NCBI GenBank assembly: GCA_002239005.1
Contig: MPNL01000008.1
Span: 1-64,000, forward strand
Direction: 5' to 3'
Origin: Truepera sp. bin119
Lineage (GTDB): Bacteria; Deinococcota; Deinococci; Deinococcales; Trueperaceae
Length of the DNA: 64,000 nt
Shown here: positions 25,910 to 30,782 of the stretch, piece by piece
How positions within the stretch are numbered: the first letter of the stretch is position 1
Layout of the letters: each line of letters begins with the position of its first letter
Notes under the pieces: generated by a model
The model's database searches: none
What the model was told of the DNA's origin: nothing
What the model saw: only the letters and a program-made list of their open reading frames with translations
Made by a program: the position numbers and the translations under genes

Positions 25910-27898
25910 TCAATGGCTGCTCTGGCGCCGGCGCAGCACGCGAAACTTGAACGACGATGTGGGGTGGGGGGTGGGTGTCTGTTTGACTTTCAGTTTGTAG
26001 CCAGGCGAGGCTAGTCTGAGTTCCAGATCATGGACGATCGTCAAGAGTGTGAGTGCAATCTGTACCTCGGCAAAATTGCTGCCCAGGCAGCGATGCGTTC
26101 CCAAGCCAAAGGGGGCAAAGGCTCCCGGTTGCTTATGCTCGGCCCGTTCCGCCGTGTAGCGATCGATATCGAAGCGCTGAGGATTCGGAAACCACTCGGA
26201 GAGGTGATGCGTTACAGTGTTGCCGACGATAACCTTCGTCCTTGCTGGCACGTTGTAGCCGGCAAACTCGAATGAGTTGGCTACGGTGCGCGGGAGACCG
26301 GAGATAACCGGATACATGCGCAGCGTTTCCAGAACGGTGCGATGCGTGACATCTAGCTCGCGCAAGCTTTCAGGCGCCAACGTTTCTTGATCGAAGAAGG
26401 CATCTGCCTCGGCAGTTATGCGCTCAAGCAACTCGGGATGCTTCAAGATCGCGTAGATCATGAAGGCACAGGTAGTGGCCGCAGTCTCGATCCCGGCGAA
26501 GAATGGACCCAGCACGGCTAACTGCAAATCCGTCTCGGGAAAGAATTGCGGGTCGGTCCGGTGCAGTTCGAGAAAGTCGTCGATCAGATCGCGGTTCGCA
26601 CGGTCCTCGCGTTCGTGGTGAGCCAACACCATCGTGTGCAGTTCTTCTACTCGCTTGCGGGCGCGCCGCAGCCGCGGTAGGCGCAGAATCCAGCCGGGGC
26701 GCTGCCGCATCACGTGGACCCTGAGCAAACCATTGAGAGTGGTGATCAAGTCATCAATGCTATCCTCTACGGAGATACCGGTAGTCAGTATGGCGATTTG
26801 CTCAGCTATGATGTTTTGCATGGCGTATTGGGTGACGACGGGCCGGTTCTGTGGCCATTCGGCGATCATGCGACGCGTGATGTCAACGACCTCATCCAAG
26901 CGGTGTTCGATAGACTTCTGGGAGTATGCGCTCCTTTGTACCTTGCGCATGCGAATGTGAGCGGGCCCGTCCATAGCTGTGAGCGCGTCCTTGGCTCCCA
27001 TTGCCATATTGAAACCCTGCCATGTCTCGTGCGAACGCAGGAAGCTTCTTCCCTGTTTCTGCACAAAGCGATTGGCCTCCAGACCAACGAGGGCGATATA
27101 GCGGCGGTTGAGTGCGCGGATCTGAAAAATCGGGCCGTGTTTGCGGTATTGCCTAGTGAGAAAGGAGCGGAGGTCTCCAGCCATGTCGAAGGCGCTGCCG
27201 ACAAGAGGCCACCCCGATACCTGCGGTATCTCTTCGGGAGGACGAACGGAAGGGGCAGGGGGAGGAGGTCCCATCGACCGCAGGGCACGAGCGACCGATT
27301 GGCCTATGAGGTCCATCTTGCTGATGAGGTCGATCCGTTCCTGCACTTCTGCCAGCTCGTCGCGGGACAGGATGCATTCAAACACGTCACAGGCCGCTGC
27401 AAGACTGATAATGACGATATCGCGCGGGTCTGGAATATCATCACTGAACAGCAATCTCATTATGCGGGACTGGACTTCCTCCGTAGCCTCGCCGTCAATG
27501 ACGGGGTAGCGCTTGGAACGTGACACGTTGCTGGAGAGGAAAAACAGAGTTGAGCCCTCGGACTCGAGAATGCCGCGTTGGACCAGCCTGGAGAGCGCCT
27601 GCTCGCGGATCTCATCACCATGCATCGCTACATGTCCCAGCCAGTGTCCGACCGGGTAAGCGCGAGCGTCTTGTGCGATCACAGCCAAGGTCGGATCGAG
27701 CAATTCATCTCCGACAGGCGTTGGATCGATGAGCATCAGCCGTTCAAGATCGGTGTCAATGCGGTTTTCCAGCGCCAGATCCATCAACACGGCGCCAGCG
27801 AGCACGGTATTGAGCGAGTGCGGCGGCAGGGAGGGGGCGATATCGCCGTCCTCACCGCTTAGGAGCAGTAGGAGAATCTCTTCAACGAATCTAAGCAT
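25910..27898 (-). CDS. GPP34 domain fused to cytochrome P450
   Basis: This 662-residue protein has two parts. Residues about 1-225 match the GPP34 (GOLPH3/Vps74-like) family: VEEILLLLLSGEDGDI, LNTVLAGAVLMDLALENRI, DPTPVGDELLD, and a REQALSRLVQRGIL helix. Residues about 240-655 are a complete P450. It has the Pro-rich hinge PPPPAPSVRPPEE, the I-helix AGIETAAT, the ExxR motif ETLRMYP, and the haem loop FAPFGLGTHRCLG with the Cys ligand. GPP34 proteins bind phosphoinositide-containing membranes in eukaryotes; here the domain may tether the oxygenase to a membrane, which is inference. It ends the operon after the MFS pump (17-bp gap). Confidence 0.85.
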   Translation of the reverse strand: MLRFVEEILLLLLSGEDGDIAPSLPPHSLNTVLAGAVLMDLALENRIDTDLERLMLIDPTPVGDELLDPTLAVIAQDARAYPVGHWLGHVAMHGDEIREQALSRLVQRGILESEGSTLFFLSSNVSRSKRYPVIDGEATEEVQSRIMRLLFSDDIPDPRDIVIISLAAACDVFECILSRDELAEVQERIDLISKMDLIGQSVARALRSMGPPPPAPSVRPPEEIPQVSGWPLVGSAFDMAGDLRSFLTRQYRKHGPIFQIRALNRRYIALVGLEANRFVQKQGRSFLRSHETWQGFNMAMGAKDALTAMDGPAHIRMRKVQRSAYSQKSIEHRLDEVVDITRRMIAEWPQNRPVVTQYAMQNIIAEQIAILTTGISVEDSIDDLITTLNGLLRVHVMRQRPGWILRLPRLRRARKRVEELHTMVLAHHEREDRANRDLIDDFLELHRTDPQFFPETDLQLAVLGPFFAGIETAATTCAFMIYAILKHPELLERITAEADAFFDQETLAPESLRELDVTHRTVLETLRMYPVISGLPRTVANSFEFAGYNVPARTKVIVGNTVTHHLSEWFPNPQRFDIDRYTAERAEHKQPGAFAPFGLGTHRCLGSNFAEVQIALTLLTIVHDLELRLASPGYKLKVKQTPTPHPTSSFKFRVLRRRQSSH

Positions 27899-27915
27899 GG
27901 TGCACCAAGCCTCTG

Positions 27916-29538: not shown

Positions 29539-29555
29539 ATGCCTAGCTTACTTGA

Positions 29556-30782
29556 TTATGTCCGCGGGCTCTTGCCGGCCAGCGTTTTGTACAAGGTATA
29601 CGCGAGCTTGTACGCCTTGTACGCGCATGACGACAGGATTGACAAGACATTCGTGGTGGTCAGGAACCCATTGCGCGTGGGCAGAAACTCGTCAGCATCC
29701 AGATCCTCAATAGCCGCCAGCGTTCTCTGTACCATGGTTTCGCCCAGCATGCGGACACGTTGATTAGTCATATCCAGCCCACCGCACGCACAAATACAGG
29801 GCACAAGCATACCGAGCATGTTCTGGCGATAGCGACGCCAACATTCTTCGAATGTAAAGTCTTTCGCTCCCATACTACAAACGATGCTGTGATACTCCTC
29901 CAAGGCTGTGCGCTCGATCCGGCGACGAACCTCAGTAGGAACGCTGGTCACCATAAAATAGGCGACATCATACAAACCGTCTTTGGCAAGTCCGGCAACC
30001 TGCCAATCGATCACAGTGAAATCGTCCGTATCGGCAGCGCCAAAGAACATATTGTCCAACCGGAAATCGCCGTGAGTCAAGGTCTGGGGCCCGGTAGCGA
30101 GGCCATTCATGTGGTCAAACAGCCTGGGGCCGTAAGCTTCGGCCAGACTCCGCATCCTGTCCGAGAACAGGTTGCCGAAGCGCTCGAGGCAAGGGGCTAA
30201 GAAGACCAAATAGAGGAGTGGCGACAACCATCTTCTCGGCAGGCCGGCGGAAGCGAAAAAATCTGACAGAGGCGGTTGCTCCAGCTTGTTCCAAAACTGG
30301 CCGTGCAACTCAGCAACGCCCCGGATGACCCGCTTAGCCCGCGTAGCGCTGGCGCCGGTGATCTGGTCCACCTTTTCCATATCGCACAGATCCTCGAGCA
30401 CCATAACAAAGCGATGACTGGTGTCTTCAAAATCGCCATATACCAAGGCGGGGAGCCCGATCCGCATTTGGGGAGCGAGCTGGCGGAAGCAGAGGTATTC
30501 TCGCTTGTACATGGAGAGTATCTTGGCTATTCGAAGGCTTGTCTTGTCGGAGCTAGACAGCTTGATGACGACGGACTCTGGGGCCTGCGCGGCGTCATCA
30601 CGATAAGTCATAGTACAGCGCAGGACCTGGCTCATTGTTCCCGATCCTGCCCCGACGTCCTCCACCACGATGTCCTTGATGGTAGGGAAATCGCCGCCAC
30701 CCGCACTCAGTGCTTGCTGCATCCAACCGACCGTCAGCGCGTTTCCATGTTCGGGGATTGGTGGGTTATTCATGCTTCCCAA
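29556..30782 (-). CDS. Ecdysteroid-kinase-like (EcKinase) phosphotransferase
   Basis: This 408-residue protein-kinase-like small-molecule phosphotransferase has an N lobe with VVIKLSS (ATP-binding Lys) and the acidic partner KREYLCFRQLAP. VMVLEDLCDM forms the hinge, the catalytic loop is LTHGDFRLDNMFF, and the metal site is VIDWQ. The order and spacing fit the EcKinase/APH-like group, which phosphorylates hydroxyls of ecdysteroids in insects and unknown lipids in bacteria. ATG 30782 is 45 bp from repeat copy D, so its promoter must lie in or beside the repeat. It is first in the kinase-MFS-P450 operon. Confidence 0.8.
   Translation of the reverse strand: MGSMNNPPIPEHGNALTVGWMQQALSAGGGDFPTIKDIVVEDVGAGSGTMSQVLRCTMTYRDDAAQAPESVVIKLSSSDKTSLRIAKILSMYKREYLCFRQLAPQMRIGLPALVYGDFEDTSHRFVMVLEDLCDMEKVDQITGASATRAKRVIRGVAELHGQFWNKLEQPPLSDFFASAGLPRRWLSPLLYLVFLAPCLERFGNLFSDRMRSLAEAYGPRLFDHMNGLATGPQTLTHGDFRLDNMFFGAADTDDFTVIDWQVAGLAKDGLYDVAYFMVTSVPTEVRRRIERTALEEYHSIVCSMGAKDFTFEECWRRYRQNMLGMLVPCICACGGLDMTNQRVRMLGETMVQRTLAAIEDLDADEFLPTRNGFLTTTNVLSILSSCAYKAYKLAYTLYKTLAGKSPRT

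Follow-up and report, generated by a model that had tools for sequence, protein, structure and literature searches.

A GPP34-cytochrome P450 fusion in an operon with an EcKL-type kinase and an MFS exporter: a possible steroid or triterpenoid tailoring cassette in Truepera sp. bin119 and other bacteria

The first 64,000 nucleotides of contig MPNL01000008.1 of Truepera sp. bin119 (the window) carry a minus-strand operon, at 25910-30782, in which the gene for an EcKL-family kinase is followed by one for an MFS exporter and one for a protein that joins a GPP34 domain to a cytochrome P450. The same gene set occurs in other phyla, and members of the wider fusion family lie beside steroid and triterpene genes. 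We consider it probable, though by no means certain, that the operon is a horizontally transferred cassette for the oxidation, phosphorylation and export of a steroid or triterpenoid; which lipid it is and which reactions occur are inferences.

The operon runs from 30782 to 25910. Its three minus-strand genes encode the EcKL-family (APH-like) kinase (29556..30782, 408 aa), a DHA2-type MFS exporter (27916..29538, 540 aa, at least 12 hydrophobic segments) and the GPP34-P450 fusion (25910..27898, 662 aa), separated by two gaps of 17 bp. A first-pass annotation made from the sequence alone had described this layout, gaps included, and had named the products as an EcKL-type kinase, a DHA2 exporter and a P450. 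The open reading frames reproduce the layout, and Pfam matches to PF02958, MFS_1 and PF00067 agree with the assignments. The annotation had also called the P450 membrane-directed from its N-terminus; the P450 call stands, but the N-terminus itself is a GPP34 domain (PF05719, E = 4e-37).

Both Pfam domains of the fusion lie in one open reading frame, which has full-length relatives. The GPP34 (GOLPH3/Vps74-like) domain occupies amino acids 6-209 (27272..27883, minus strand), scoring 128.7 bits against a gathering score of 29.1 and covering positions 3-201 of the 201 in the profile. The P450 domain (PF00067, E = 9e-57) spans amino acids 228-631 (26006..27217, minus strand). Its ExxR motif, ETLR (E524-R527, 26318..26329), and its haem-ligand cysteine, C604 in FGLGTHRCLG (26087..26089), are invariant in an alignment of 24 fusions, and with the Pfam match and both motifs present the protein qualifies as a cytochrome P450. 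An AlphaFold2 model of the fusion built from 24 sequences was fairly confident (mean pLDDT 83.7, pTM 0.75). The nearest solved folds were the Methylococcus and human sterol 14-alpha-demethylases (CYP51s) at 22-24% identity, and sequence search agreed. Like the window protein, the bacterial Methylococcus capsulatus CYP51-ferredoxin is a fusion P450, but the N-terminal partner here is GPP34 and not ferredoxin. Despite CYP51 being nearest in sequence and fold, we rejected a CYP51 identity, as the I helix reads AGIETAAT where CYP51s carry a signature of the HTS type.

The GPP34 domain resembles GOLPH3/Vps74, a Golgi protein of animals and yeast, in its Pfam family and in predicted strands at amino acids 111-114 and 118-121, which fall within the Vps74 beta-hairpin region. 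It differs in being bacterial, in being fused to an enzyme and in its PI4P pocket, which in Vps74 consists of W88, R97, K178 and R181. The first three are replaced in the window by P, A and D, respectively, while R181 is retained; W88 and R97 were found in none of the 33 fusions examined. With three of the four residues changed, PI4P binding by the known pocket was rejected, and use of that pocket by the window domain is, from its residues, unlikely.

The kinase matches PF02958 at E = 3e-17, with 63.3 bits against a gathering score of 22. In its catalytic loop, HGDFRLDN (amino acids 237-244, 30051..30074, minus strand), residues H237, G238, D239, R241 and N244 are invariant in the kinase alignment, as is the metal-binding IDWQ (amino acids 258-261, 30000..30011, minus strand); K74 is intact. 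The score and the conserved HGDxxxxN and IDWQ motifs place the protein in the EcKL family. It shares the Pfam match and intact motifs with the insect ecdysteroid 22-kinase/EcKL family, but it is bacterial and operonic with a P450 and an exporter, and phosphorylation of a steroid by it is only inferred. Strong homology to unrelated aminoglycoside or macrolide functions would, according to the first-pass annotation, have refuted a tailoring role. The homologies do not point that way: the kinase matches far better to EcKL than to APH, and the solved structures nearest the P450 are sterol demethylases. The exporter matches MFS_1 (PF07690) at E = 2e-46 but falls below the NCBIfam cut-off for the EmrB/DHA2 subfamily (207.6 against 230.2 bits). 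DHA2 membership is therefore not met, and by these scores the protein is an MFS transporter most like DHA2 pumps.

A search for the same three genes elsewhere, suggested at the outset as a check, found them together in several phyla and in shuffled orders. In a scan of 84,980 species genomes, six full-length fusions turned up with identities of 46-51%; their MAGs carry the labels Caldilineaceae, Alphaproteobacteria, Pseudomonadales and Deltaproteobacteria. Kinase and exporter homologues adjoin the fusion at loci L021, L023, L024 and L025, and the Caldilineaceae contig L063 has the window's gene order at 67, 61 and 63% identity. Beyond the window, the set is present in five MAGs (two Caldilineaceae, two Alphaproteobacteria and one Pseudomonadales), with the near-identical L023 and L024 counted as one independent case. 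The order is kinase-exporter-P450 in the window and L063, P450-kinase-exporter in L021, and exporter-P450-kinase in L023, L024 and L025, the last with a reverse-strand transporter gene between exporter and P450. A squalene-hopene-type cyclase (PF13243/PF13249) with a DIDDTA motif adjoins the set in L023, L024 and L025, and the L023 and L024 clusters also contain a squalene epoxidase (PF08491). Viral carriage was rejected, as no relative turned up when viral contigs were scanned, and so was carriage of the fusion by plasmids, as no plasmid record covered 80% of it.

Many further fusions came from a GPP34 search of about 1,000 genomes, and GPP34-P450s are now known from four phyla or more. When P450 domains were placed in a maximum-likelihood tree, the fusions grouped in a single clade (34 rows, 100/97) that excludes all P450s without GPP34, and the window P450 pairs with that of L063, a Chloroflexota sequence, at 100/100. 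This topology fits a single fusion event followed by transfer between phyla. Three neighbourhoods recur. One is the kinase and exporter; another is a sulfotransferase directly adjoining the fusion (L026, L067, L068, L113, L114 and L115). The third consists of a KshA-type Rieske oxygenase (PF19298), a flavin oxidoreductase, an MMPL transporter and a sterol methyltransferase (SMT, PF08498), some of which are found at each of L086, L087, L089, L120, L124, L125 and other loci. L128 has two SMTs and an 1151-aa squalene epoxidase-oxidosqualene cyclase fusion.

To describe these associations we counted conjugation and steroid/triterpene markers, namely homologues of SMT, cyclase, epoxidase, sulfotransferase, Rieske oxygenase and EcKL. 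At least one was present at 22 of the 29 fusion loci that extend over 9 kb or more, whereas all 15 loci with other GPP34 genes lacked every one. The markers were chosen after the recurrence had been noticed and three of the queries came from counted loci, so the comparison is indicative and not a formal test. One group of fusions (L064, L065 and L117-L119) has none of the markers, P450 relatives without GPP34 (L014 and L015) sit in unrelated neighbourhoods, and some EcKL homologues (L133-L136) have no GPP34-P450 nearby.

The Truepera genome contains a single fusion and a single standalone GPP34, C34, which shares 53% identity with the GPP34 domain of the fusion. It also has one SMT homologue and one EcKL homologue, the window kinase being the only one found. 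The SMT homologue (34532..35548, minus strand, 338 aa) begins 3.7 kb upstream of the operon; it is probably a functional neighbour and not an operon member. It is 75% identical to the SMT of L089, which directly adjoins a GPP34-P450 and contains the Sterol_MT_C domain (PF08498). The window copy ends early, without the last part of this C-terminal domain, and gave no PF08498 match up to E = 1. A frameshift was rejected as the explanation, as no other frame yielded the missing tail. The truncated homologue may be decaying or altered.

No squalene/oxidosqualene cyclase (PF13243) was detected in the genome, which is 96.8% complete, while the same search was positive in control genomes and in the genomes of L023-L025. 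With no cyclase of either kind, de novo synthesis of sterols or hopanoids by this genome was rejected. Thus a steroid or triterpenoid substrate, if the cassette acts on one, would come from outside.

Horizontal acquisition of the operon had previously been proposed from base composition. The three operon genes do have a lower GC content (0.577, 0.595 and 0.558) than two nearby sulfatases (0.653 and 0.654), as had been noted by eye. However, values of about 0.58-0.61 also occur elsewhere in the window (1-14 kb and about 48-51 kb), so composition alone does not show acquisition, and we rejected the GC shift as proof of it. Gene distribution and trees provide better evidence. Among 111 genomes of the class searched, none of the other 110 had a strong GPP34; this, together with the 100/100 pairing with a Chloroflexota sequence, supports horizontal acquisition. 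Just downstream of the operon and on its strand lie two sulfatase-like genes (22706-25722), the second of which seems to lose its sulfatase reading near the C-terminus. Between the operon and the SMT homologue is a gene for an ankyrin-repeat protein (31242-32816), a eukaryotic-like class of protein common in symbionts.

From this gene content we infer the following route. The GPP34 domain would hold the P450 at the membrane, perhaps by docking on lipids other than PI4P, and the P450 would hydroxylate a tetracyclic or pentacyclic lipid resident in that membrane. The EcKL kinase would then phosphorylate a hydroxyl of the oxidised lipid, giving an amphipathic product, and the DHA2-like pump would export the phosphate ester. 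The lipid is presumed to be external in this genome, probably from the host or a neighbouring symbiont. In sister lineages a sulfotransferase stands in place of the kinase, suggesting that the second step is polar conjugation in general, and this exchange supports a general logic of oxidation followed by conjugation. Steroids and triterpenoids are preferred over lipids generally because an epoxidase, cyclases, SMTs and KshA-type Rieske oxygenases adjoin family members. Thus the initial suggestion of a sterol or lipid tailoring cassette is supported in kind, while chemistry on one compound remains inferred. Against our preferred reading, there is no biochemistry, uptake of the substrate is required without an identified importer, and DHA2 pumps are commonly multidrug exporters. 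The EcKLs away from fusions, the GPP34-less P450s in unrelated loci and the markerless fusion group also count against it.

The absence of a cyclase from this genome would also fit a detoxification cassette, in which toxic terpenoids or steroids from the host or neighbours are oxidised, phosphorylated and expelled as a defence and not for biosynthesis or signalling. Insect EcKLs are regarded as enzymes that detoxify by phosphorylation, and the exporter comes from a drug-efflux family. However, the cyclase in the L023, L024 and L025 clusters and the epoxidase in L023 and L024 are as in a producing pathway, and elsewhere the family is found in steroid clusters that include SMT and oxidosqualene cyclase. 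Detoxification is a possibility that we keep in view but think unlikely.

More doubtful is that the P450 and kinase act on a polyketide, carotenoid or other terpenoid and that the steroid genes of the relatives belong to a different subfamily. Identity between the window P450 domain and the P450s of the SMT/Rieske clusters is only about 33-41%, and APH/EcKL kinases have broad substrates, but some loci of the kinase-bearing set are themselves next to squalene epoxidase and cyclase genes, and the window has an SMT homologue close by. That the three genes share no function and are kept together by chance or shared mobility seems very improbable to us. While the whole set is mobile between phyla and its gene order varies, the three families stay together across three orders at 38-67% identity, and this genome has only one copy each of the kinase and the fusion.

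The steroid or triterpenoid cassette that we favor has partial parallels in known systems. Among Ircinia symbionts, which span ten phyla, steroid gene clusters that include CYP51, lanosterol synthase and SMT have spread by horizontal transfer (Kelly et al. 2022, PMC9531527). These clusters resemble the loci described here in that transfer carried genes for SMT, oxidosqualene cyclase, P450 and SDR into many symbiont phyla, but their core P450 is CYP51, and the window has no cyclase. The main text of that article makes no mention of GPP34, and no kinase-exporter cassette was found described there. Sponge-symbiont SMTs are active in vitro (Brown et al., PMC10070321), and the main text of that article does not mention P450 or CYP51. 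In the BstABC system for bacterial sterol transport, BstA belongs to the MMPL family (Zhai et al. 2024, PMC10942540). MMPL-family genes likewise recur beside GPP34-P450s in the SMT/Rieske clusters (without direct comparison with BstA), whereas the window has a DHA2-like MFS pump instead. Literature retrieved for bacterial or symbiont GPP34 was mostly on the unrelated Gpp34 insecticidal protein or on eukaryotes, and nothing relevant was found on GOLPH3 with P450. Within the literature searched, both the GPP34-P450 fusion and the kinase-exporter cassette appear to be undescribed.

A bolder proposal is that GPP34-P450s are new membrane-docked steroid oxygenases traded among symbiont phyla, and that the kinase and sulfotransferase clusters are the as yet unrecognised bacterial source of sponge steroid phosphates and sulfates. 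Haplosamates, sponge steroids carrying both phosphate and sulfate (PMC10384810), would be one example, although their link to the window cassette is speculation. A sponge origin of the MAGs is suggested only by bin names and is unconfirmed from papers. We regard this proposal as improbable on present evidence. Steroid-modifying bacterial genes bear on the disputed origin of sponge sterols and fossil biomarkers. A recurrent enzyme fusion to a Golgi lipid-trafficking fold, with the exchange of kinase for sulfotransferase, would provide a route, open to testing, by which marine holobionts could form steroid phosphates and sulfates, and a plausible job for bacterial GPP34 would follow.

Additional arrangements were seen among the collected loci. 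GPP34 is fused to an ABC transporter ATPase with a TOBE domain at L066:8523-10232, and this domain branches among the GPP34 domains of P450 fusions, which suggests domain shuffling. It is fused to an MFS transporter at L092:8834-10795 and lies C-terminal to about 450 aa without a Pfam match at L091:7307-9376. GPP34 and P450 are two adjacent open reading frames at L059:118-2193, and a P450 fusion is split into two at L090:9147-11182. Single proteins combining an epoxidase with a cyclase of the squalene-hopene/oxidosqualene family are encoded at L128:2-3457 (the 1151-aa protein) and also at L036 and L037. A P450 relative without GPP34 on Planktothrix agardhii plasmid p2 (L018) lies in a squalene/triterpenoid cluster with a squalene synthase, a squalene-cyclase-like protein, an epoxidase-like monooxygenase and several P450s, a setting that favours the steroid or triterpenoid reading. 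Lastly, at L029:8807-11314 the gene immediately upstream of a P450 relative that has no GPP34 encodes a sulfotransferase, so the pairing with a sulfotransferase may predate the fusion or be independent of it.
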